Positions 15,794 to 48,100 of a DNA stretch of 64,000 nucleotides are shown here, in pieces. Both the position numbers and the translations under genes were made by a program. This stretch comes from Daphnia carinata (Eukaryota; Arthropoda; Branchiopoda; Diplostraca; Daphniidae), in the NCBI RefSeq assembly GCF_022539665.2, contig NC_081331.1:6420501-6484500 (forward strand). The letters are read 5' to 3'. The first letter of the stretch is position 1, and each line of letters begins with the position of its first letter. The notes under the pieces are model-generated. The model did no database searches and was not told the origin of the DNA. It was given only the letters and a program-made list of their open reading frames with translations.

Positions 15794-18544
15794 TATCAGA
15801 AATTTCTTCAGAATATGTAAATTTATCTCCTCGTTTTATTGTTTATAAAAAGTGTCACAAAGCTATTTTACCACCACATCGCAGCAGACGAATTTCAAAA
15901 TCAAAACTGTCGTCTGCCACCAGATCGCGTTATTATCACGTCGATATTCTGGCTTCCTGCAAAATGTTATGAATGAAAATGGACTTTGCCCAACACCACC
16001 GGCCGAGAAAATTGGTGTTGTGAAGGTTGATGAAAAACTGAGCTACGTGTTCCAAGGTTTGATTCTGCTCAAAAGATGACCATCAAACATCGCGTTTTAC
16101 AGTTTGCTGGCAGGAGTTTCATAAATTCGTCCATAGCTCTCCCGTTATGCCTTTTGAGGGCAAAAGAAGGTAAATTGCCTCACGTAATCCATCAGGACCT
16201 CAAACAGAGACCCTTACATGGTGATTCAGCTTCCTTGGAAGGGACTTGTGCCCCACTACATCCTCGTGTATACGCATAGGAAATTATTCCATCGACCTGA
16301 GTTGATATTCCAACATCTTACGAGGCCAACTAGATTCAAAAAGTCTTGTGTCTGTACGTCGGAGAACTTAAATGTTTGTTTTTTTTGGAATGCCAATGAC
16401 CTTTTCAGCTTTCCCCTAAAGACGAGTTATGTTTCTTTCTTCTCTTTTATTCAACACGAGCGTCCTCCAAACATCGCGTCCTTGTCCTCTGGACTTTGAC
16501 TGCCAAAGTCCTTGCTTAACTGCCCAAAGTTTAGGGCAGTCTTGTGTTATTGCAACCCATTTTGAACGTATGGGTTTTCGCCGTTCAGTTTTGAACAGGT
16601 AACTTAATCGAAACATCGCCAACTGTCTGGGTCAGCATTGATGTTCGTCTGCTGCTGGCAATATGTCGGATTTCAACGTTTTCAGTAAACACAAAATCCT
16701 TTAAGATGGTTGTATTGTTTGATCAGGAAATGTAATAATAATGTATTAACACACAAAAAAAGGGGACGGTTTGGAAATCGGAAAAGAAATAATACAATCA
16801 AGTGAGCATTTCAATATGCATCTCTGGGAATTATTTCAAGAGAACAGCCAAGGGCCGGAATGTTTATGCAAACTTGTATGGAATAACGAGAGGTAAACGC
16901 TACAAGTTCAATGTTTTGTTTTTTTTTGTTTTTTTTTCCCAGTAGATCACTTCCCGAAAAAGGTTAAAGGTATAAAATTTCTTCTTTATTAATTCTTTAT
17001 TGTGTTTTCGATTCCAGAAAAAAACATCAAAATGAATCGTGAAGAGAGGGTAGGGAACGGGGGGTGGGATGTAGAAAACACGTTTGGTTTCTCTTAACGT
17101 AAAAAGTCAAAGACAAAAAAGAGGGGAAGAAAATAATAAAGACGGGATTCAAAGGGTTTCGTATTCTTTCTTTTTTCCTGTTATTTTGTTCCAGACGAGT
17201 ACCATCGTTCCATGAACAGGAATTTCGTGGGGGGAAGGGGAGTGGGGGGGGGGGACTTATCGAAAACTTGGACAAAGGCAACAATAGAAAACAAAAAAGA
17301 TAATCATTTATTTCTGTAATATTTTTTTTTTTTTTTGGTCCTCGCATTTGACTGGACTGTTGTCTTTTGTTTTTCTTTTTTGAATTCCAGTTTTTGTTTT
17401 TCGTTTGTGATGTTTCTTCTTTCGTTTCTGTCGTTCCTCGATTTATTGATTCGGCACTTGAGCACAAGGAAAATAGATGAAGAAAAATGGGGAAAGAACA
17501 ACTAAACAAAAACAAATGACAGAAGAACATCATTCTCTCCTTGATTTCCTTTATTCTTTCGTTTTCTTATTTTTTGTTCGTTTCAACTAAACTCCTATTG
17601 GCGATGGATCAATCCGAAAAACACGTGAACTCAACAAGAGACCCTTTGTATCAGGTATTTGAAAGGGGGGGGGGGGGGTGAAAGAAGAATAAGAAAAAAA
17701 AAATTATTCGATATCATTAATAATAATAAATTGAAGATAAAAAAAAAAAGAGAGGAAGGCAGCTTTCAACTTGTGGGGAGGGGGGAGGGAGAAGCGAAAG
17801 AATTACGGGATACACACACATTACACCAATCGATGTGATATAGTTTGTGCGCGTGTACGTGTGTATCTTGAAAACTTGGATATGCCTTTTATGTACACGT
17901 AAACAAATAACCCCATTGCTACACCTCTACGTCATAGTAAAGTCGAACAAACTGATACCGTTAAAGGTAGTGTTTTTTTTTTCTTTTATTATTATTATTA
18001 TTATTATTTGTAATTGTTTCGTCTTCTCGCTTGTTTTTTTTTTGTATCCTTTTTTTTTTTCTTCTTTTGCTATGACACACACGCGGAGCAAAAAAAAAAA
18101 AAAAAATTATGTATTCACGTACCGGGGCGAGGTACGCGAAAGAAAAAAAAGGCTGGAGTCGATGGAGGGAGTGTATCGAAGAAATTTGATAAGCAAAAAA
18201 AAAAAAAAAGAAGAGGAAGAGCAAAAAAAAAAAAAATGTTTGTAATAAAGGATGATCATTTGGGATAATCCTGAGGCTACACGGAGAGAGAAAACTGTTC
18301 TTCCAGTTCTCGCGCGCAGGTAAAATAAGGCGGGCGTGAAAGGAGAAGATTTCTCTTAATAAAAAAAAAAAAAAAAAAATAAAGAAAAAATAACGTAATA
18401 ATAAGAACGGATGGAACAGGGGACGAAAGAAGAAATTGTTAATGGGGGTGAAAAAACTCAAAAAAAAAAAAAAAAAAGAAAACAATTAAGAGATACGAAG
18501 GAAAGGCTTTTTGTTTTTTTTTTATCCATAGGCATTTGGGCCAT
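15794..18544. other. IPO13 upstream region and ELOVL 3' region
   Basis: No supported coding gene. The left part holds the IPO13 promoter. From about 16.9 kb to 18.5 kb the DNA is dense in poly-A, poly-T and poly-G tracts (for example the G run near 17668-17679 and A runs near 18362-18379). This is probably the 3' UTR and downstream region of the minus-strand elongase. Long open frames such as 17027-17533 and 17961-18485 are translations of these tracts. Confidence 0.5.
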
Positions 18545-20748
18545 CTATTCATTCTTGGAATGAAGAGCTCCATTGGTGTAGCCGTTTGAGTGGCCGTTGG
18601 TGTGGCCGTTCTTCTCGTGTACTTTGCCGTTGGCGTGACCATTGGTGTGGCCGTTGGCGTGCCCGTTGGTGTGACCATTGCTGTGACCATTGCTAGTGCC
18701 ATTAGAGTATCCGTTACTGTGTCCATTGGCTTTCAAGCCATTCGTAGCCGCCGCAATCTACTCACACACACACACACAACAGTCAATAAAAACAAATTAG
18801 ATCAGAAATACCCCAACCAAGACATAAAAAAAAAACAAAAAAAAACAAAAAGCTTCGCTATTCTACAGGTGGTCTGGTCGCAGTAAACAGTTGGACTAGT
18901 TTCCAACATTTAATGTGGACAGAGGGGCGGAGCGACACGTGGAACTGAAAATAATCCGCTTTCCTCCGACACTTGAAAGAAGGGTAAACTATTTTTCCCA
19001 CGAAAAACTTAAATTGGATTTGAAAAAAGAAAAACGTCTTTTCTGCTACTTAAAGCAGGAAGAAAATTTTTTTTTAATGTTCGGAGTCAGCGGCAGAAAT
19101 GAATGAAACGCTTACGCGAGACTTTGCGTTTTTGTAGCTGCGTTTGTAGAAATCAGAGAAGAGGCAGAAGAAGAGAACGCCGTGGCAGCCGATCCACCAG
19201 ACGAAGGCCTTGGGGTAGTTGCAATCGATGAAGAGAAGTTGGAAAGCGTGCACCACAATAGCGATGAATTGAACCTAATAGCGGCGTAAAAGAATTAAAA
19301 AAAACAAAAACAACAAACAATCAATTCACGTGTACACAACATTGCGGACCATCATCGGCCTTCCGCTTTGCGAGGGCCACGCCCTGTCGATCCAGTAGGA
19401 TCCACCAAACGTCAACAGAACGCACTAAATCAAGACGGATGGTTCATTTTTTTTTTGTGTGTGTGTGTGCGGAAGGATGTCGCCATTTGTTAGATGTCGG
19501 ACAGGACAAAAGAGAACGACGTACCATCTGGAAAGCAGTGAGGTATTTCTTCCACCAAATGAACTTTTGGTATTGGGGACCCATGGCGGCCACCATGTAG
19601 TAAAAGTACATGACAATGTGGACGAAGGTGTTGAGCAAACCGAAAAAGGTAGAGTGGCCACCGGGAGTGAAGCGGACTCCGAACCAGACACTCATCGGCA
19701 TAATACCGTGGTGGACGACGTGAAGAAGGGAGACGTGCTCGTCCTTTTTGCGCAAAACGAAGAAGAACTGCAATGCAAATGAGGAGAGATGGTTCATTAA
19801 ATCAATGATTGATTTTAAAAATAATTGAGTATCTCACGGTATCGAAGAACTCGGTGAACTTGGAGAAGTAGTACCACCAGCAGGCGTAGACCATCTGAAT
19901 TATGTCGCCAATAGAAAGAATAGCGTTAGATCATCACGTTCCGTTAAAGTCGACATTGCTTTAAATTGTTTTAGGAAATGAAACTTCCATTTTTTTTTTT
20001 TTTTTGGGGGGAGGGGGGGTTTTAAGAAGGGGGAAAAAAACATAAAAAGGTTTGGAATTGAACACAAAATCTCGTCATCAAACAAGATGCCTGCAATGGG
20101 TTCTTATGCAATTCACACATTGTACTGAAATTGCGATTTACGATCGTTGCATCATTGCAGGATTCTTAAACATTTTTGATGAACGAAATAAGCGGAATAG
20201 GTTTGAAGAAGTTTTGAACGTAAAAAAACAAAACTTGATGTTTTCTTTTTCTTTTCTTTTTTTGTGGCAGAACGGAGGACATTTTGTGGAGGCGTGTCGG
20301 GGAGCAAGTAACGTGCGTCTATCTTTTGTGTGTAGCGTGATTTTGTTGGAGCTATCATGCAACCAATAAATAAAAAAATAAAGCGTCAAGCAAACAAACG
20401 CAAATTGGGAATTGTGTTGACGGTCGATTTGGTCGCGGTATTTTTTTCAAAATCAATTCGTAATGTTTGTTTTTTTTTTTCAACTTTAAATCTACGGTCC
20501 AATACGAGAGTCGGTCTTTCAGTTTCAACTAGTCTCATTTTGTTGTTGTTGTATGTAGTAGTTAAAAAATTGCACTAACTACAGCATTTGTGTTAGTAAA
20601 TGAAAAAATCGGACAATGTAAGGTGGGATTAAAAAATTACAATAAAAAAAATCAATAAATAAAGAAAGAACGGAAACAAATGTGAAAGGAAATTGTATAA
20701 AAAAAAAAGACTAGCACGAAAAGCCGTTTGAAAATCATTTGTAATTAG

Positions 20749-20789
<41 letters not shown>

Positions 20790-23700
20790 TAGATAGAGGT
20801 GGGAGTGGGATTGGAATTGTTGTGTTGTGATTTTGTATGTAAGGAGGATGATGATGAGAAGTGCGGAGAAAATTGCAGGTAAGAGAAAAAAATAAAAATA
20901 AAAACACGTACATAAAAAAAAAAAAATGTGGAAAGAACGTCGAAGGATAATCATGCACACAACTCACCCGAATAGCCAGCGGATTATCAGTATAATCCAC
21001 CGGTTGGCAACGGTAACTGTAACTATTTGCCCAGCCAGACATGGCTATCTGGAAATAAAATAAAAGCGCGATCGCACCGTCACCAAAAAAAAAAAAAAAA
21101 TTTTTTTTCTTTAATTTCTTTCTTTTTGTGACATATTTCGATTTTTAAAAATTAATTAATTTTTTTGTGTGTGTGCGTTTTTGTTCCTCTTTTTTCAGAA
21201 GAAATTTCCAATTAAAATTACCCTCCCTCAAAAATGATCTATGAACGTCCACTGACATTTCGCTATTGGCGTTCTTTAATTATTTTTTTTATGAGAACAC
21301 TCTTATTAAACAAACAAAAAAAAAAAAACGAGCTGAAGAGAGTGGACCCGTTGTTCTTTCATTGCCCCATCGATTTTTCTTTAAATTTTTTTTTGAGAAG
21401 ATCGTGCACTTCTTCGAGGCATGGTCTCTTTTTGAACAGCATCCAGCAGTAGAGAAGGAAACAGATCGACAGAGCAAAAAAAAAAAAAAAACAAGAGAAG
21501 ATTTTTTAAGATGCAAAACTAAAACAAAAAAAAAGATTGTGCAGGAAAGAAGGAGATATGCCGACATCATCGACGACGTGTGGAATAAAAAGAAAAGTTT
21601 TCCAAGAAGATAATACAACAAAACATTTTTTTTTTTTTTTTTCGAATGTGGTTGTCTCCCCGGCCTATCTAAACAAAAAATGATTTGCACCTGGAATCAA
21701 TCAGCTGGTTGCGACATTTGTAAAAACAAAAAAAAAAAAAAAAAAAAAACAAGACGAAGGTAAGGAGATTCATATGGAAAGGTGGTAGCGTGTTGATCCG
21801 CCCGTGTTTCTTTTTTCGTTTCACCTCAGGTAAGAACATTTCAGCTAGAAATTCGAACACCGAAAGATGCCCCACACAAAATTGATCCTAGCTGTTTAGT
21901 TGTTATCGATTAGTTTTTAAAAGCGAGATTGGACTGTTTTTTTTAATGCGTCCCTTTAAAAACCATGCACCAAAAACACGGCCAAATGCAGTAAAAAGTT
22001 GAACGTTCGTGTTCCAAAAAAAAAAAAAAGAAAAGAAAAACAATTTTTTTTTTCTTTTTCTTTTCCAGGTAGAAAAAAAATTTACAAAGATGGAATGCTT
22101 CCAAAGCGGAGGCTGGGAGGGGGGGGGGGAGGGAACGTTCTTTCACTAGACCAAACCGACGCTTGTCTTGTTTTAATATTTCATGTTTTTGGAGGACTAC
22201 AAAATTTTGGAGGATTTTTTTTTTAAATATTTAAATCCTTTTTTTTTTTTTTTAAATCAAAGAAAATTAAAGATGGGACTGCTTCTAAAAGGTGGGGCAT
22301 TTAATTTTTTGACAGAAAAAGAGGGCGGGGCATATTGAAGAAAATTCAAAACTCACCCTGACGGCCATTTCGTCAAGGGAATAGTCAACTGGTTGACACA
22401 CAAAGCTATATCCATGGAACCAGCCCCCTCTACCGTACTGCGAAGAAGAAAATCACAAAACAACACAAAACAAAAAAAAACAAAAAAAAAAAAATACAAA
22501 CGGATTATTATCATTAAAAAAAAATGGATGGGATTTTTTTTTTTGTGGCCTGTTGTTTTCCCTCGAGTTGGATCCATCACAAGACGAAATGTTTTTTTTT
22601 TTTTAAATTGCTCCTCTTAACGACACAGATTCTTTGTGTCCGTGATTTAAATCACACGGAACGTCTATCTGCCAACCAAAAAAAACCGATGCCTTGACGG
22701 GCCTTGGTGGATAGGCGAGGTGAGGATCAGGTGAAAGGATCGGGAAAGATGGGGCTGGAAGAGAGTATAGGAAAAGACCAAAGTAAAAGGAAACTTTAAA
22801 AAAAACCCAGAAACATTTTCAAATAAAACCTTTGGAAACATCGGCACAGCTGAGAGAGAGAAGGCCCCCCCCTCCCTCACCATATCCTCCGATTCAAAAA
22901 TCATTCCATTTCGTAATAATTTTGTGCTCCCCAAGATTCTGACGAGAATTAAAAAAAAAAAAAATGAATAAAATATAGTAGGAAAAAAAATGAATAAAAA
23001 TAAGTATTTTGAGGATGTAGTACAAAGTGTTAATAATAATCTAATAAAAAAATGAACGTGAAAAGCTTGTCATCCAGATGGCCAAGGGGAATGGTAGTGA
23101 GAGGCATTTTCAAATAAATAAATTGAAAAAAAAAGAAACTCGTCGGTGGGGGGTCAGAGAGGTACCAAAAGCAACGAATAAATACACCCGAGTCAATATA
23201 ATAAAAGCAGATGAGATAAGAAATGTTTGAAATTAAAAAAAAAATGAATAAATTATCGACCTTTTTTTCTGTTCGATTTTTTTTTTTTCAAAAATTTAGT
23301 TTTAAACGTTGGGTCTTCAAAAACGTCTGTCTTCGACGAACACTCTGTTTTCGAATTATTTTTAAACTCAACGTCGTTCTCGTAGTTTATGTGACGCAAT
23401 CTTTTCGTGTAGTATGTGGAGGGCCGATTGAATTCAAAAAAAAAAAAAAAAAAAATTGGGGAGATAGAAAGTGTGGGCCAATTTTACTTTGATGGAAATC
23501 TTTCTTTAAAAAAAAAAAGGAGGTCATAGAGAGAAAAGGGAGAAAGAGAGAGAGAGAGAGCGATATTGCAGACACAAAATACAAGACTCACCCGAATGGC
23601 AATAGGATCGTCACTATAGTCAACTGGTTGGCACTTTAAACTGTAGTACTGTAGCCATCCACCCATCAGCGACTGTCAAGACGCATACAGATTTGTTTTT

Positions 23701-25662
23701 GATCAAAAACGATTCATCATTTCATTGACAAATCAAAAAAAAAATTCATTTTCGTGATTCGACGACTCATTCCACCAAGTCCACACCGTTTCGTCTCCCC
23801 CAATGTTATCAGTCTGTCCTTTTTTTTTTTTTTTTAAATCTTTCAATTCAATTGCACCGTCCATTAAAAAAAAAAAAAATACGTTAAGTAGCCCCCGTTG
23901 TTTCCCTTGTTTGCCCCACCCCCCTTCCAACGATACAAACAACCACAACAACTAAGTGTCAAGAAAAGAAGAGGAATAGAAATAAAAATAAAATAAAAAT
24001 AAAATACTTTTGGAAAGAAGAAAAAAATAAATAAATAATATAAATCAACATAATAAAAAGCGGGAAGGCGGAGGATAGGAAGCGTATTGTGCGTGACTAA
24101 TTGCAAACAAATAAAATTTCAAACGTGCCGCCGCAATGTTGAAAATGAACAGCGGATCCACTTTCCCGACCCAGCCCCGATCTTAAAGAGTTTCGTACAA
24201 TAAATTCGTTCGAGGAATTTAATTGAAAAGAAGGTAATTTAAAAAAAAAATAATAATAAATAAATAAATTTAAAAAGTGGGAGGGGTGAAGGTAATAACT
24301 GAGGTGAAATTTGTCAGGTGTGAATTTTGAAACGGACTTGGCCGAATCGATCAAGGATTTCAGGATATGTTAAGGATACCGGTGTGGACAATATGGTGGC
24401 AGGACGTTTTCAGGTTTTTTTTTTTTTTCATCTTCTTTCCTCGTCAATTCCGATGTCTTAAATTGTTTTGTGTTTATAATTAACTTAACAAAATTGTAAT
24501 CGTGACTTAGGCGTAGAAATGAAACAATCGTATTTTACCTCGTAGAAGAGCCACGTGCTGAAGATGACTTGTATCGCGTTATAGATGACCAAAGTGCGGC
24601 GGAACTGGAAGGCTGGTCGGTCCTTCATGTAGGCGGGTCCCCACACTTTGACGAGCATGACGTAGGTCAAGCAGATTGCCAGCGTCGACAGCGGCGAGCT
24701 CATAAACAGCCAATTCTCCACTCTCCTATCTGATTTTGGCAAACAAATGATTTTATTTTTCGTTATTCTAAACGAGTCCAGACATGTTTTAACATTCAAT
24801 TTTCGTTACGCAAGCCGACAGTCTAATTGAATTAAATTACAAGTCTCTGGGGTATTCCCTGATTAGTTATTAACAATGTGACCCTCGTAAACGTACGGAC
24901 CGTCACGCAAAGGATGTCGTTTCTATTTTTTGTTGTTAGTTACAGACGTTGCCACACGAATCTGCACGCTAACACGCTCGGCCCCAGACAAATGAACTAA
25001 TCAAGTCTGTTACTCATACCCCACCCCCCCCCACCCCAAAAAAAAACAACGTGGTAGATCAAAATCTTAATTCCAGTGAATTGCTAATTTGAAATTAGCA
25101 TTTGTTAGTCAACTTAAATGCGTCTAACAATGTCTGGTATATCAACAACTGACGAACGGGATGAAAACAGCACGACTGACATCATTTTTCCCTATGACGT
25201 CAAGTGGCCAATGGCAAACGTTGAGGATCACGTTTCTCAGCAATGACATTCAACTTGGGCAGAAAAAAAAAAAGAAAAAAAAAATTGAAAGTGCAACACT
25301 TTGTTTGCACCAAATGAAATTCAACCAACTGGTTTGACGCGTTTTGATACGTCATTTCACCTTGCGCACGCAAACAGATAGCGCGTGAACTTGAAAACGA
25401 GTTTACCTCGCATTACGAGGGTTTAGCCCTTCAACGATGACCATTGAACGTGATCCACTTCATTCTCCCGTTTAACTAAATCTTAAAATTTCCGCTTCCA
25501 CTTAAATCGTTTCACGTCTACCCGAAACATAACGATTAGATTTGAAAAGCCCGCGAGAGGGCGGCCATTACGAAGCGGGAAATTTGAATTGAAATGTCAT
25601 TTACCTCTGAGGTCCCATATGCTGTTGTAGCCGTCGACGACGGTAGCCACGAGGGATGCCAT
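18545..25662 (-). CDS. ELOVL: ELOVL very-long-chain fatty acid elongase with cassette exons
   Basis: 3-ketoacyl-CoA synthase of the ER membrane, which condenses malonyl-CoA with long acyl-CoA; closest in wording to arthropod ELOVL1/7-type proteins. Constant exons: 25605-25662, 24539-24729, 19838-19894, 19525-19767, 19116-19274 and 18545-18757. One of three 81-bp cassettes (23592-23672, 22357-22437, 20968-21048) goes between the second and third. With one cassette the protein is 333 aa. Motifs: CQPVDY in the cassette, [26 protein letters not shown], catalytic HVVHH at 145-149, [20 protein letters not shown], and [21 protein letters not shown]. The last exon adds about 70 residues of NGHSNG/NGHTNG repeats instead of a short dilysine ER-retrieval end; it finishes SKNE. 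Long homopolymer-filled introns are unusual beside the compact neighbours. Start: first ATG ([11 protein letters not shown]). Confidence 0.94.
18577..18727 (-). repeat. Coding tandem repeat for Asn-Gly-His/Thr/Ser tail
   Basis: Imperfect repeats of about 12 bp (plus-strand look GGCCGTTGGTGT) encode repeated [11 protein letters not shown]-like units at the elongase C-terminus. Low complexity, probably length-variable between individuals. Confidence 0.85.
20753..20797. repeat. (GA)n followed by (GATA)n microsatellite
   Basis: A pure GA run passes directly into GATA units, in an ELOVL intron just downstream (in transcript sense) of cassette C. Confidence 0.95.
20968..21048 (-). other. ELOVL: ELOVL cassette exon C (third in transcript)
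   Basis: 81 bp, phase 0 at both ends, acceptor ATTTCCAG and donor CGG|GTGAGT. It encodes [13 protein letters not shown], then CQPVDYT, ending DNPLAIR. It shares about 16 of 27 residues with cassette A. Confidence 0.92.
22357..22437 (-). other. ELOVL: ELOVL cassette exon B (second in transcript)
   Basis: 81 bp, phase 0 at both ends, acceptor CTTCGCAG and donor AGG|GTGAGT. It encodes [13 protein letters not shown], then CQPVDYS, ending LDEMAVR. It shares about 15 of 27 residues with cassette A and is the most divergent of the three. Confidence 0.92.
23592..23672 (-). other. ELOVL: ELOVL cassette exon A (first in transcript)
   Basis: 81 bp, 27 codons, phase 0 at both ends, acceptor CTTGACAG and donor CGG|GTGAGT. 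It encodes a segment starting [11 protein letters not shown], then CQPVDYS, ending DDPIAIR. It matches the expected elongase loop between the second and third membrane segments. Confidence 0.92.
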
Positions 25663-26298
25663 GTTGTATCGCTGACTTGTGACGTTTCTAGGTTTTCACC
25701 GGTTGGCGAGAAAAAAAATGTCTTCAGTTTGTCTTCTGCTGATTTTTTTTTTGTGTGCGCGTTGAGTGTTCACCTTTGTGGGAAGAACCACCGCGACGTA
25801 CTTGCGTGGCCCACAGCGGAATGAAAGTCAGAGACCTAAGGGGGTGAAAACAAGAGGACATCATTAAAATGATATCAAAATTTTGAGAATTTGAAGGACC
25901 CAGTGTTGTCAAACTATTTGAAATGATGCAATCAAAATCAGATTTTGATTTCAAACGAGCAGATGTTCACATACGAAGCACAGGAAACGATTTGCATATC
26001 AAACTAACGGGTTGCATCATTTATAGATGCAGACATCATTAAAAAGAAAATAGGGTCAGTGAAAACAGCCGTTGCGTCAGATGGCCAAAATGTTCAACAC
26101 CCAAACAACGAAACGGATCTAGGGTTTTTACCTTTAAGGTGTCAATCACACACACACAAAAAAAAACCTGTCCGAGGAATGTTGTGCAGAGATTTTAAAA
26201 ACAAAACAAAAAAAAAACAAACGCTTGCCTAACTAAAGAAAAAAAAATTGTAAGCAAGCTTTAAGGAACCAGGTCAAACCATGGCTTAGAGCGATGAT

Positions 26299-26336
26299 AC
26301 ACACACACACACGTACACACACACACCACACACACG
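26299..26336. repeat. (AC)n-type microsatellite
   Basis: Interrupted ACAC run in the ELOVL upstream region. Similar short runs occur at 31856-31875 (CA). Confidence 0.9.
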
Positions 26337-27527
26337 TAGACACACGCATAGCGCGTCGATAATCAGAAAAGGAGGGGCACAACACACACACACCGAAGGG
26401 TACAAGAAGAATTTTCACCTTTTCAAACCTTCCCCTCCCCCCCCCTACCTGTTCTTCCTCTTTTTTTTTTTCCCTCCTGAGTTTGGGCAACGATTCAAGT
26501 CCGTTCTCGACAGTGTTCCCAAAATGATAGCCATCTCCCCATACTTTGCTTTTTTTTTTCTTCTCTTTTGAAAATGTTGTATGACCCTATTGGCTTCCAA
26601 GTTGCCAAATTGGGCCAATACCGAACAAAATGTTTTGAAAAATGCTGTTAAAAAAAATAAATAAATAAAGCTAAACACAAACAATTGGCTGCGGCGTTCA
26701 ACTCTCTCAAAGTTGGGCTCGATTTCGGCGCTCGCACAAAACCTTCTGGCTAATCGTCATAGACGACCTACATCTTTCTCTGCCTCAACTTTCTCCTACA
26801 TGTTGTGTTACTCTCTTTCTCAACAAGCTATCCATTAGCCAAATATATTCAATACAAAAATAAAAAAGGTTGATTTTCAATTTTCAATGTAAAAGGACAT
26901 TTTTGTTTAAACGGGCTAAATTGAAGAACATCGAAGCTACTAAACCTGATTTTTTTTTTTTTTACCTCCAAGATTAATTAGTAACACTTAAAAAAGATAA
27001 TGTGCCAGGTGTAGCTGCAACTCACTGTCGACTGCACAGATGCGCAACGGTGAGATGGTGGCGCGCACGCGCGCGTTCACTACGACAAGAGGCACAGGTA
27101 AGACGCACGTGGAAATGGGGTCCCTTCTTTTTAAAAGTCGGAGCTGTTGGACGCACAGGTAGAGGGGGAATTAAAAAAAAAAATGGAAAGAAGAAGAAGA
27201 AGAAGAAACAAAAATGTGAGACTGACACTCGGAGAGAGACTGGTCATCGAATCGGCTCATCGGTCCTATATAGTTTGAAATGCCATCGTGACTCCGCCCT
27301 CTTTCCTTTGGCTGGAAGAAGCCAAATGGCTACTTGCTGTCCCACCACATCAAGCCGAGAATTTGCAAAAAAAATAAAATAAAAATAAATACATTTCGAA
27401 CGATCAAGTTCTCTTTCATTGACCTCGGTTATTTCTAGCTACTGTTTTTGCCCATTCTCGGCAGATTCGTCGTGTTGAGACGCTACGCAAAACGATGTCA
27501 ACACGAAACAAATGAATCGCTAAACAT

Positions 27528-41175: not shown

Positions 41176-44100
41176 TTATTTGCTCTTCTTCTTGACCTTG
41201 GAAGATTTGACGCCCATTTTTTTCGATCCCTTTTTCTTCTTTTTCTTTTTCTTCTTCTCCTTGACGTTGCTGTTGCCGGCCAAGAACTCGTCCTGATCAT
41301 TATTACGCAAATTATTTTCACCTTCAACATTTAATTGTTTTTTTTCATCCAAAAGAATATTAGAATCACCTCTTCGGTTTCGGCGTTGCGGTGGCGCTTC
41401 CGTCGACAAGGCGTTTTGGCGTACCACATTCTCAAATTCTCTTCATCCTCCCTTAGGGCAAATAAACAAAAAATACACGCTGGAGAAGATGCCAATCAAG
41501 AATGAATTTTCACATTTAATCGGTCTCTTCCTTTGTCTCAGCTCTTTGAATCTTGGCGAATTGATGCCATAAGAAACTAGCGGTACTCTTCAGGGCAATG
41601 GCGTCATAAACTGACACCGAAATAAGCCGGGCTAAAAAAAAAAAAAATAAGGAGAAACTTTCCTTTTTTTTCTACGTCTTATCTTTGGGTACATAACTGC
41701 CATGACCGGCTGCCTTATTTACCCACACTCCCCCAGACATGCGCCATTTTGATTTTGGCAGTTATCCCAATAGTTAAAAGAAATAGGTTACGCATCAAAA
41801 CTAAGCGAAACGTGATCTCCTTAACAGACAATTCCCTTTTGAAAATAAGATTTCAAATTGATTTGAGACTCATGCTCGCATAAACTGACGAATGAATTGG
41901 AGGTTTCACATACTTGTAAATGGGTTCGCAGCGGGCCAGCGCCGACACGAACTCGTCCGCTTTCAGCATCTGACGTGGCAACAGCTGTTTCCGTCGTTCG
42001 CTCAATATCTATTGTGACGTCATTATATAAACATTTTATTTACCACACAATTTTTTTTTTCTTTTTTCTTTTTAGAATAAATATTACAAAACGCTCTTAC
42101 TTCAGAAACTGATCGTGCAATGGAGCCGGGCGTGTACGAGTCGGAAATCCGTGCCAGATTCGTCAATTCCGCAGGAGTCGTTGTGTATTGACATGAGCGC
42201 GTCGCTTGACGGATAAAATAGTCCCACATGGTAAAACGGGTGCCGTAATCCGGTGGGGGTATGCCAATCATCCGCTGGAAGCACTTGCGACAAATTCTTT
42301 AATAAAAAAAAATGATGTAATGAAATTCAAATGCTATAATCGATTCGAATCGCATCAGATTAACTCGTTGATCGCATTCCCACGGAGTGGACGAAGTTCC
42401 GACAAGGAGGACGCGATCCTCAGGTCCGATGGCTCTCAAAATCTTTGGCAATTCCTTCCTCATACGGCGCATGTCCCATCGTTCCATGCGCACCGATTTC
42501 TTCATAAATAGACGGTCGACGTCTTCGATAACGATTACGGATGGTTGCAACAGTCTAGAAACCTTGTTTAGAACCCAATCCGATTGAAATAGTTTGAATG
42601 GCCGGAGTTGGGGGCGCTTTAACCAAAGTTGTACCACTTACTTTAGTGATCAAATGGATAAGCATGGTCATGCCGGCCTTCCCCGGATAGCGGCCCATCA
42701 ACGAAGAGTTGCTCATGTCGAATAAAGTGGCACCAGTGTGGTTACATATAGCGTGCATTAAAAAGCTTTTACCCGAACCATGCGGTCCGGCTAACAAGAC
42801 GGAACGAGTCAATGGCGTCCTCTTCCGGATCTCTTCCGATCCTTGAAAAAAAAAAAAAAAATAATAATAATGTCAAAATATCATACAAGATGGATGTTTT
42901 TGAAAATAGTCATACCAAGGGTTAGAATGCAATACTCGATCAAAGCGCAGCGGATGTCTCCCAGTCCGGGAAATGTGTCGCGCTTCCATTTCCGACTGAG
43001 TGGATCGACAACAGAGACAGAACCCAGGAAATCTTGAATGTTTGCTTTCGGATAGGAGCGGATGATGCCGACTTGGACCAGCTCTTCCACAAGAGACTCG
43101 AGCGTTCGGTCGGGAGTCAGATCCTTCTCTTTGCGACCTCTCTTGGATTTCTTGGCCGCTTTTCGGGCCGTCTTCCTCTTACCTTTGCTCTTGCGCCCGC
43201 GGTCGCGATCGTAAGCCGATTTCAAACGATCCAGCTCGTAGCGAGCCTGGATATCCGCTTCAAGTCGCATCTCGTCGTCCAACTCTTCAGATACTTGCGC
43301 CCTGAGAAGCTCCAGGTCCCATCCGATCCCACCCGTCTCCGCACGATCCCTCCAAACGTCTAGAAGAAGCTCATCTTTCATTTTCCTCGCATTTAAATTT
43401 CAATTTTTCATAACGGACCGTAATATTTCTGATTTTCGTGGACGATTTTTTCCAGCCATTGCGACGGTGTCATGTCGACACCTTTTGGCCTGTCCTCTTC
43501 TGCCCGTTTCATGCTGCTCGATGTCTTAGCCATAGGCGGTGCTGTTACTTTCTTCATTGCATTGAGCGAAAATGAACCAAATTAAAAATCGATTCAATTT
43601 TCTTGCATGTGTTTCAAGGGTTTCTCACTTTTTTCACCACGACGGGGACGGGCGTTTCGACGGGCCGGTCGGCCGTATTGTAAATGAGTTTGGATCCTCC
43701 TTCCTCCTCTGCTGGAAGGTCAGGAAATTTGCCGCTTTGCTCGCGATGATCGATGTACCAGCGTCGAATTTGCTCTAAGAAACTTTCTCTGATGGCCACT
43801 CCATCTTTGTCTCTTTGGCGATCGCGAAGCGTTGCCAACTCGATTTGATATTGCGCTTCGAGTTCCGTTTGCTTCAGCGTTCGCATTGTCTCCAGTTCTT
43901 TCGCTCGCGTGATCTCCGGATTCTCTTTGTAGTTCTTGGGGACCTGCAAAATAAAAAACACGTTTTTTTTTTTGTTTTTTTTTTTAACAGTCAACCGCCT
44001 ACAAACGTCGCAATAATTCCGCCCATTAATCACGAATAAGAAAAGTGCTGATTCTATCGCCCTCAAGGTCTTTCACGCTCCAAGGATTTGCCAAGTCCAT

Positions 44101-45195
44101 TGATTCATATTGCGATCTTTTCTTTTTTTCACGACCCTAAACCGCACCGCGGGTTTTCAATTCAAAGCATATTTTGCATTTGGGCGTGTTCATTTTTGTT
44201 TGTTGTTATTCTGAAATTGTTTTAACGTGGACGTTTATGTTATCTAGTGACCGGAAAACAAAAGAATTTTGATTGAGGAAATGGATTTCTCCAACTATTA
44301 CGTCGTTCGTGCTTGGCCGGCTAAATATTCAAATGATTGATGTCACTCATTTTTTTTTTGTGCGTGAAATCAGTGGGGCGGGATTGATGGCAAAAAAAAA
44401 AAAGAAAACAATTTCACTTCATACCATTCCGAGGAACACCATTTCTTGATGGCGCATTTGACGGACGCGTTTGAGCGCTAAGAAGCTGCGCCAGGCGTTT
44501 TGGATTTTGATGGCGGCCGTGTAGGTGTTCATAGCGGGTTTGAGCTTATGCAAGCCGCGCCCGGTCACCATTTTCTGCTGGCGGATTTGCTTCATCAAGT
44601 TGAAACGCAGGCGGCCCTGACGAGCTCGTTCGTGAATTTGAATCAGAGCCACGGCTTCATCCCACGTCATGGACGCGCTGTCGGCGCTCAGTTGTCGACG
44701 CGGATTGCGCTCCGACTTGAGCAGCACTCGCTGGACCAGCTGTTTGCGGTCCGTTTCGCTAGCCGAACGGACGGAAGCGTTTCCGTCTCGATCTCCATTG
44801 ACGAACAGCGTCAACGGCGGATCAGTTTGTTCGGGGGACATTTTCAATTGGGCCAGTGCGACTCCGATGAATGGCGTTTCGTTAAATTCCAGTGTGGCCA
44901 ATTCGTTTTTCAGCTCGACCACTCGGCCCAGGACGGCCCTTATGATGGTGCTGATATCGCGTCGCTTCTGGACGTGCAACATGTTGCGAAAGCAGACGTC
45001 CAGCTTCCGGGCGACGACAATGTAGCGCAGATAGACGAGACTGAGTCGCGAATAGAGGACATGTCGGTGTTTCTCCGGCAGTGATGCCACGATGGCTTTC
45101 TCCTGTTCCCATAACGATTCCAACTCGTCCTCGGCCCAGCGCCACAATTCGTCCAAGTCCACCCTGCCATTTATTTGAAACGACGTGTCACGCAT
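41176..45195 (-). CDS. IQCA1: IQ and AAA domain protein, DRC11/IQCA1 (nexin-dynein regulatory complex)
   Basis: Subunit of the nexin-dynein regulatory complex of motile cilia and sperm flagella. Exons in transcript order: 44425-45195, 43629-43943, 43419-43551, 42916-43374, 42642-42841, 42384-42562, 42101-42296, 41914-42008, 41370-41451 and 41176-41292. Phases agree; product about 848 aa (human about 820). N-terminal helical region with HVQKRRDISTIIRAVLGRVVELKNELA; IQ motif AAIKIQNAWRSFLALKRV (about 227-244). A Lys-rich linker precedes EKDLTPDRTLESLVEELVQ. The AAA+ module has Walker A GPHGSGKS (578-585) and Walker B-like VIVIEDVD (635-642). PPPDYGTRFTMWDYFI follows, then ADEFVSALARCEPIYK and NLRMWYAKTP. 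It ends in a Lys-rich tail (SSKVKKKSK). In insects and crustaceans such genes are expected mainly in testis and sensory cilia. The intron between 43419 and 43374 is only 44 nt, and the 42384 donor leaves out eight residues that would otherwise read on. Confidence 0.9.
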
Positions 45196-48100
45196 ACTGT
45201 ACAATTTCGATTAGCAAACAAACATCGTTTGTCTCAACGACAATGAAATAATAGTTCCTCAGCGTAAGACTGGAACATTGACCTGCGTCACAGTTTTAAC
45301 CGCAATATGCATATTCGAGCAGGTCCTTTAGTGACTGGTTGGTCCACTCGTGGGCAACGGGCCACAAGCCTTACACATAAACACACAACCTGAAATCTCG
45401 ATTTAATAGTACAGGCAGTACACTGCCCTCTATAAGGATATGCAAATCTGGCCGTCAATGAGTCACTGTACGGAGACGGAATTTCAGGTCTGAGATTGAT
45501 GCGCTGGACGGTGAAAAACTACACAGAAATTTAGGACAGCAATACTGAGATGGCTTTAAAACTTACATGGACATGATGAGTCTTGAATTTCAGCTATCGA
45601 GAATCCCAATTCACTTGGAACAGCAATGCCCTGTCAAACTTGTAAATAGAAGAACGCTCTGGGATGTGCATATCGATTAAGCGTTGCCATAGTGATTGTT
45701 TATAACAGTCTACACCAACACGAAGCCCTTCTTTGTTATTGTTTAAATATGAATGTCACTTTTGTTTTTCATTCTTCGAACTTCAGATGCCCGCGTGTAC
45801 GGGAACAGGTTCTATAACAAGGATTGCATGAACAAGCAGTTAAACCCTTTCCATTTCTATTTACGCTAAAACAATTAAAAAGGAAAAACCTGATCCGAAA
45901 GGGAAAAACAAGTTGTAAAAGCGAACCAGTTTTGTCTCATTTTCATTATCAGCAACTTGTAATTTTCAGTCCAGCAGGTTGTAGAACAAGCGAAACCGGA
46001 CAGAGATGAATGACTTTGTACTACAGAAGAATGCACCTTGAGTACTGTAACACATATTTAAATTTGTCTACAGGATTATTCAAATTTCCTAACACTTTTC
46101 GTGCCAAGAGTTTCGCGTTCGTGAATGCGCAGGAAATACAAGAGAAAATCCCCGTAGTTACAAATTTATGCAACTTTTACGGTACTGGATCTTTTGCTGA
46201 ATTTCCGCACTGCGTTTGCAAACAAGGTTATCTCTAGAAGCACATCGAAAATATTGCAAAGCATTTTCCGCACTTGTGGGATTTTATTGCAATAAAATTG
46301 TGGTTAAATTGTCTGGTTTTGCTGCTTTTTAAGATAGTGGACCATAAACATTAGATGCATTCGCGAATTGCCTTATTACTTTTCAATTAAAATGGGAAAA
46401 ATTTTGCATTGCGAACAAAGCAAATCTCGAAAGGTTTGCGATTTATTACACCAGGCTTATACGAGTTTGCAGATTGCCAAAAATCTTCGTTTAAGTGACA
46501 GCAAGTAAACAAGGACGAATCCTTTATTTCTCCTACGTGTACGAATTTTATTACGCTTTTAACTGCTGTAACTATTTTATGAACTATAAGTGAAAGGTAG
46601 GAAACAATGTAAACAAATAGAGAAAAAAAAATAAATAAAAGGGAAGAATCACGACCGTTTTCAAGGTTTCCAACGATTCGGGTAAAATCCCACACCGTTT
46701 GCCATTGGCAGTACGAACGTGCAATACTGCAAGGTCACGATGTCTTTTATCTTGGGAAAAGGGGAAATACCTGATTAAAAATGCAAAAAAATGAAAAGGG
46801 AAATTATTAAGGGAAGTTTTGCAAGGTATTCATATGTGAAGCGTAACTCAAACGTTAAGAAATGCAGTAATTCGAATATTTATGCAATCGGAAAATTCCA
46901 ACGCTTACACTTATCGAGCTGTTGACTCACTTCCTATCAAATGCTAGTGGACGACTCATGTCTTTTGGAGGGGCAAAGTCATGACATCATTCATAAATAA
47001 TGCATGGCAATTGTGGGATTTACTCGTATCGCTAAATGAAAGCGACGATATTAAGAAATATAACAACCGATCATGTTTGTTATTGTCAAGTTTGTCCAAT
47101 CAGGAAGAGCAGACCTAATCTACGAAATGCCTTATCACGAACTGATACGAGGTTGTTAGTCACATTGGCGACGGATAGGAAGAGAAGGATCGAGACAGTG
47201 GGATATGTCACTCAGTTTTCCAGGACCACCTTCCCCTATCCGCCAAATAAATGACGCACGAAAATCAAATGAAAAACATTTTGTTTCGTCATGGCCCATG
47301 AGTCGCTATCCGCTTTGATCGGGAACTGTCCCGCTAAGACGAGTAATAGCAAAAAATGATTGTGATCTATACAAACTGAAAGGACCAGACTGAACCATTT
47401 TGCATCTCACTCGGCCATGGGCAATTTTAAGTGGATCCGCTTGGTTTTGCCATAAAAAAAAACAACACGGTAATAAAAAGAGAAAAAAAGCGTATCGTTT
47501 TCTTGTTCGTATGGCTCACCTTATTCTATCTGGCGAAATATTTTATGCATTGCAATTTTTTTTTGTTTAGAAAGTGGTCATCAACACACTTTTTCACGGT
47601 TATGTATACAACTACTAGGTTTTTTCCACTTGAAAAATACCTTGTCCTGGTTTATTTATTTGTTTTCCATTGACGCCTTTGTTGACTTACAAAGAACCTA
47701 TTCTTTTTCTGTTTTTGCTTTCTCTTTTTTTCTCTTTCTGATTTTTGAACAAGTAGCAAATGATTTCGTCTAGTCGTAGACGGGATGAATCCAAAGCCGA
47801 ATTATCATGATTCCGCATTGCTTTTCTCTGCTCTATTAATTTTTTAAACTTGGCTTACTGTTGTGGGCAAAGAGCGACGTCAATGGCCATCATTTTCACC
47901 AAACAATAACCCGCATGAAAAACATACAGGACGGCTATTGTTATTAAGAACAAAAACGTGATAACAGAAAAGGCCGGAAGGTAAGGAAACGGACCCCCCT
48001 CGCCATCTCGTAACTGGTACAGGAAAGCCCGCTAGTGTGGTCATTATTTAACGAAGAAGAACGAAGAAGATTTAACGAGAATGTTAAATATAAGAAACAG

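Follow-up and report, generated by a model that had tools for sequence, protein, structure and literature searches.

Three tandem 81-nt exons in a Daphnia fatty-acid elongase gene: a likely array of alternative lid loops

Tandem exons of equal length and phase raise a simple question: does an mRNA take one of them or several, and what would the protein gain from the exchange? The question is posed here by a fatty-acid elongase gene on the minus strand of a 64-kb stretch of Daphnia DNA (the window, to which all positions below refer unless a contig is given), which spans 7.1 kb and encodes 333 amino acids when one of three cassette exons, A, B or C, is included in the coding sequence. Judged from its sequence, the gene is an ELOVL7-type, "AAEL008004-like" elongase. 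A sequence-only reading had proposed that exon duplication produced mutually exclusive exons in this gene, so that three elongases of different chain-length preference could arise from it, and we asked how far this proposal holds.

The gene and its three cassettes

Exon boundaries were drawn from the genome sequence and from the proteins of relatives. The coding sequence begins on the minus strand with E1 (25662-25605, 58 nt from the ATG, open frame, donor GTAAAT), which starts like the D. pulex protein P0014, and continues with E2 (24729-24539, 191 nt), the constant exon on the 5' side of the array. Then follow, all on the same strand and each of 81 nt, cassette A (23672-23592), cassette B (22437-22357) and cassette C (21048-20968). 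Downstream of the array lie the constant exon E4 (19894-19838, 57 nt), E5 (19767-19525) with a match to PF01151 and the catalytic HxxHH motif in the form HVVHH, whose H145, H148 and H149 are invariant in 40 aligned proteins, E6 (19274-19116) with the Loop 6 cysteine C228, and the last coding exon E7 (18757-18545) with the stop codon and a stretch of NG(H/Y/T) repeats that forms a tail similar to that of P0014. The constant junctions at 24539 and 19894 named in the earlier reading are correct. Scored exon by exon, the PF01151 (ELO) profile exceeded its curated cut-off at C1:6440019-6440285 and 6444940-6445206. P0014, annotated as AAEL008004-like isoform X1, is identical to isoform C at 325 of 333 positions; by segment, the identities are 79/83 for upstream residues 1-83, 27/27 for the cassette and then 152/153 and 67/70 aligned positions. 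Among solved structures, the sequence search brought up human ELOVL7 (6y7f) as the single relative.

Several further features of the surroundings were recorded. The repeats of the E7 tail are encoded by a 12-bp tandem repeat (18558-18739, minus strand), and similar NG-rich tails occur in the alignment in D. pulex and in decapod relatives. The same genome contains further elongase loci, including seven uninterrupted reading frames clustered at C1:2,024,077-2,042,148 that are possibly intron-poor tandem paralogues. Elsewhere on the minus strand of the window, an open frame at 12305-12880 matches the importin-13 repeat PF18806, and open frames at 42299-45204 with matches to AAA (42299-42637) and the IQ motif (44419-45204) are perhaps parts of one IQ/AAA gene.

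Each cassette comprises 27 codons, is in phase 0 at both ends, and is preceded by an AG acceptor and followed by a GTGAGT donor, just as the sequence-only reading had described. Its approximate residue identities were also reproduced on recomputation, with 15/27 for A/B and 16/27 for A/C, to which 12/27 for B/C is added; at the level of bases the values are 46/81, 50/81 and 40/81, respectively. The cassettes match one another in tblastn within the 64-kb window at E values between 8e-7 and 6e-10, and their origin by exon duplication is supported. A fourth cassette was not detected by tblastn in the window, where the next-best matches had E values of 0.1 or worse; this negative result rests on tblastn, since a six-frame motif scan was too strict and missed cassette A. 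The introns between the cassettes measure 1154 and 1308 nt. Their best local alignments scored 11.8-16.0, compared with an average of 14.8 (sd 1.6) for 200 control pairs, so none exceeded chance, and there is no sign of recently duplicated introns. No Rfam family matched at gathering score within 18000-26500. Mutually exclusive exons have been predicted from length, splice sites, reading frame and homology (PMC3228551), and by these standards A, B and C qualify with similar length, the same phase, compatible splice sites and homology. As had been pointed out before, 81 is divisible by three and the frame is unable to enforce exclusion: it stays open with zero, one, two or three cassettes.

Cassette types in relatives and the number per mRNA

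Isoforms B, A and C (region 66-129) were used as queries against protein sequences and yielded 376, 399 and 396 matches, of which 120 each were listed, corresponding to 196 distinct proteins. Cassette kinds were distinguished by pattern (A, [CS]LMGGW; B, YG.GGWF; C, I..SGW, with C mostly 28 residues long in insects). The labels are set by the first residues, and cassette columns 1 and 2 are thus not independent of them. The units were located with a pattern that requires the core cysteine, and the conservation of that residue was taken from the 40-protein alignment instead. P0047, which lacks WWYY, was left out of the unit tables and of the tree.

Among the matches listed, proteins with the flank of this same gene contain three kinds of cassette, A, B and C. 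Insect as well as crustacean proteins with the same flanks carry an A-, B- or C-type cassette, and more than one type is found within single species. The isoform models X2 (A) and X3 (B) of the damselfly Hetaerina americana are identical over 84 + 231 flanking residues and differ exactly at the cassette; X4 and X3 of the fruit fly Bactrocera dorsalis (identical over 83 + 286 flanking residues) and X2 and X1 of the bee Megachile rotundata (83 + 209) differ in having A or C. In all three species, the switch points of the models coincide with the exon junctions in the window. Among the insect proteins of this elongase gene in the matches listed, the B type occurred in the damselfly only. The statement that elongases carry this segment once is therefore untrue for the AAEL008004-like group, in which the same flanks occur with A, B or C types, and the distribution over insects and crustaceans argues for an inherited array and not for a Daphnia novelty.

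We favor the reading, at a probability of about 80%, that the locus holds an old array of three alternative 81-nt exons, that each mRNA likely contains exactly one of them and that three enzymes differing only in a lid loop would result. One cassette per protein is indeed what relatives offer: where assembled contigs are the sole source of a protein, a single cassette is present in all 40 cases, and likewise in all 26 of these that have this gene's flank (both among the matches listed). The strict form of the earlier claim fared less well than its core, in that 30 of the 196 distinct proteins among the matches listed hold two cassettes, always in the order A then C (30/30), and exclusion may therefore leak. 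Strict exclusion still appears likely from the comparison of these sequences.

The 30 two-cassette proteins are at the same time the best argument for regarding the cassettes as ordinary optional in-frame exons, of which an mRNA could take one, two or three, a second copy lengthening the luminal loop by 27-28 residues. Some of them are named isoform models with identical flanks: the two-cassette models of Scaptodrosophila, Ceratina and Bombus equal a single-cassette isoform of the same or a named species at all compared flanking residues. Every combination of cassettes is in frame, and a modeled two-cassette protein keeps its core helices. However, all 30 are insect by name and come from ncbi, uniref or nr, and several are no more than annotations of a genome, where any exons that keep the frame would be joined. 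Two-cassette entries from crustaceans were absent from the matches listed, three cassettes were found in none of the 196 distinct proteins listed, and the 40 contig-only proteins each have one. In addition, residues 91-130 of the two-cassette model are of low confidence (block means 44-52), and two loop cysteines would be expected to compete for a single partner in Loop 6. We therefore consider this alternative unlikely.

A much less probable idea is that one cassette is in use and the other two are decaying relics. Isoform C is the sole named Daphnia protein (P0014) among the matches listed, and the pyrimidine tract before the acceptor of cassette A is weaker (10/17) than those of B (13/17) and C (14/17). 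Yet a database clustered at 90% identity would merge the isoforms of one Daphnia species, so missing named A and B entries say little, and all three cassettes retain their frame, splice sites and invariant core. Each is moreover matched by a protein that uses it singly: P0014 from D. pulex has C alone (27/27 identical to cassette C of the window), P0039, from a 2349-nt contig, has A alone (23/27) and P0001, from a 1688-nt contig, has B alone (26/27), and the flanks of all three are close to those of the window gene. The contigs behind P0039 and P0001 are probably transcripts, because they are short while the window gene spans 7.1 kb.

How old is the array? Cassette B of the window is identical to that of the springtail protein P0003 at 22 of 27 residues and to its own neighbors A and C at 15 and 12 of 27. 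A tree was built from 28 columns for 111 distinct cassettes; its bootstrap had not settled, and many forks stayed open. One branch (99/88) has the 59 A rows all to one side, and the same holds for the 13 B rows at another branch (96/96). The C rows, with B rows among them, form no clean group. The A cassette of the window groups with insect A-type cassettes and its B cassette with the B-type cassettes of springtail, damselfly and crab; its C cassette is placed loosely. Forcing the three cassettes of the window into one clade costs 47 log units and is rejected (p-AU 0.0316, on 28 columns). At least A and B thus appear to have separated before the lineages of Daphnia, springtail, damselfly and crab split, with less certainty for C. 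The A and B types are shared with other Pancrustacea, and on this evidence the duplication of the exon took place long ago and is no specialty of Daphnia. The tandem layout, the equal lengths and the identical donor hexamers might speak for an assembly artifact or a recent local duplication. Both can practically be dismissed, as 31 to 41 of the 81 bases differ between cassettes, the surrounding introns resemble one another no more than chance would have it, other arthropods share the A and B types and the tree test contradicts such an origin.

The exchanged segment and its choice

The position of the cassette in the protein was derived by modeling the D. pulex protein with AlphaFold2 (alignment of 40 sequences, mean pLDDT 78). 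The model predicts an elongase fold for this orthologue and matches 6y7f with a TM-score of 0.90 on the target. It places TM2 at residues 63-89, the following loop at 90-105 and TM3 at 106-134, with residues 91-100 of the loop at modest confidence (mean pLDDT 63). The cassette, residues 84-110, is accordingly predicted to run from the last part of TM2 through Loop 2 into the first part of TM3, which fits the earlier placement between membrane helices 2 and 3. Neither the cassette residue C97 nor C228, encoded by E6, varies among the 40 aligned proteins. For ELOVL5, modeled on ELOVL7, a disulfide between Loop 2 (TM2-TM3) and Loop 6 is described to close the ER end of the acyl tunnel (PMC10449689), and we take C97 and C228 to be the counterparts of these cysteines. 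Each cassette spans the loop including C97 and would hence supply the whole Loop 2 lid. The likely function of the array is the swapping of substrate-tunnel lids.

The lid could affect which acyl chains are used or the efficiency with which they are used. An influence on chain length, as proposed originally, may be one possibility among others such as rate, folding or the choice of partners. It is not a given, because the authors of PMC10449689 describe a Loop 2 of the same shape for four human elongases, find elongase-specific shape mainly in Loop 6 and ascribe a role in chain length to TM6, Loop 6 and TM7.

How might one cassette be chosen? Splice sites were classed with the U12 consensus, and U12-type donors are absent from the array, whose donors are GTAAAA and GTGAGT and whose acceptors end in AG. 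Crowding of splice sites is unlikely in view of the 1154 and 1308 nt between the cassettes. As neither frame nor intron length nor splice-site class is able to enforce exclusion, we infer that long-range intron pairing acts together with a repressor. Competing RNA pairings of this kind are described for Dscam and 14-3-3zeta in PMC6071210.

The intronic pairing elements whose search had been suggested could be computed as candidate sites, all on the minus strand, but did not stand out beyond controls. A candidate docking element in the E2-A intron (24183-24149) pairs at -40.2 with 22758-22724 and at -37.0 with 21357-21299, values that controls also reach. The former partner, a candidate selector for B, lies 287-321 nt upstream of that cassette, and a candidate selector for C (21357-21330) lies 282-309 nt upstream of its own, neither being distinguished from controls; their similar distances from B and C were spotted post hoc. 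When 24-nt pieces of the E2-A intron were paired with both inter-cassette introns, 24 dinucleotide shuffles gave no equally good result. The G-rich 24-nt piece, however, paired better with the reversed A-B intron than with the true one (-35.1 vs -32.5), and against 210 half-overlapping segments of the window, the gene itself included, the A-B intron ranked 11th and the B-C intron 78th. With 44-nt pieces, the summed pairing was -77.0 compared with a mean of -74.0 (sd 18) for 34 control triples, of which four extreme ones (-114 to -129) probably represent opposite strands that overlap. Two of the 34 matched the weaker partner (-36.8), and controls that were reversed or on the wrong strand reached -32.0 to -35.9. 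The C-E4 intron did no better, with 2 of 24 shuffles as low.

Protein-binding motifs were also noted. A pyrimidine tract of 33 nt on the minus strand (23528-23560) starts 32 nt after cassette A and possibly binds a repressor. It is a CT repeat, as is 20753-20785, 183 nt after cassette C; the minus strand of the window has five (CT)5+ repeats in all, these two included. A TGCATG at 20952-20957 (minus strand), presumably an Rbfox-type motif, begins 11 nt after cassette C and serves as a lead only; over the 30 nt that follow each of the three donors, 0.02 occurrences would be expected in total. A second copy is located at 20356-20361, 607 nt after cassette C, and the whole strand of the window contains 15. 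RNA pairing with a repressor is our favored mode, although we see it and locally acting protein-bound motifs as about equally probable.

Taken as a sequence of events, our favored reading would run as follows. A Daphnia elongase mRNA would take one cassette of A, B and C, the choice being made through long-range intron pairing together with a repressor; the chosen cassette would cap the luminal end of the substrate tunnel with its own Loop 2, and this lid may alter the selection of acyl chains or the efficiency of their use. A more far-reaching version, in which the set of lids has persisted from an ancestor shared by crustaceans and insects, the choice is regulated by tissue or temperature and splicing resets the acyl chains that are lengthened with no need for a new gene, is put forward tentatively and strikes us as rather doubtful.

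Significance and known counterparts

The substrate range of elongases has mostly been studied via paralogues that differ everywhere, while the isoforms considered here would differ in a single 27-residue lid, which makes the question of substrate range directly testable in yeast. Old, shared between insects and crustaceans and situated in the gene of a metabolic enzyme, the array also provides a case for how exclusion holds or leaks without enforcement by the frame. Public databases hold isoform models of this gene in which the alternative segment is recorded without comment in the entries examined, and in the literature searched no paper was found on alternative or duplicated exons of an AAEL008004-like elongase. 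Genome-wide lists of mutually exclusive exons in Drosophila exist and may include this elongase. An elongase of the AAEL008004 name appears, with the exon not named, among the differentially spliced genes of cold-stressed Apis cerana in PMC11677483, and this entry offers a physiological lead.

The closest counterparts are the AAEL008004-like isoforms of insects and crustaceans, which resemble the window gene in group, flanks, switch points and A/B/C types; they differ from Daphnia in that insect C cassettes are mostly 28 residues long and that, among the matches listed, two-cassette entries come from insects only. The Dscam, Mhc, 14-3-3zeta, Pfk and other clusters of arthropods treated in PMC6071210 are similar: there, too, one segment is swapped by homologous exons in tandem that agree in length and phase. 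The list of Drosophila clusters with at least three exons given there has no elongase, and exclusivity and RNA pairing have been demonstrated for some of the clusters, whereas the Daphnia array is known here from sequence. Most likely, the array is a mutually exclusive type of exon cluster, and the swap would change the substrate-tunnel lid of the enzyme. Human ELOVL7 (6y7f) and ELOVL5 resemble the Daphnia elongase in fold and sequence and in the Loop 2 cysteine and VDYS core; the solved ELOVL7 protein has one version of the segment, whereas the Daphnia gene offers three.
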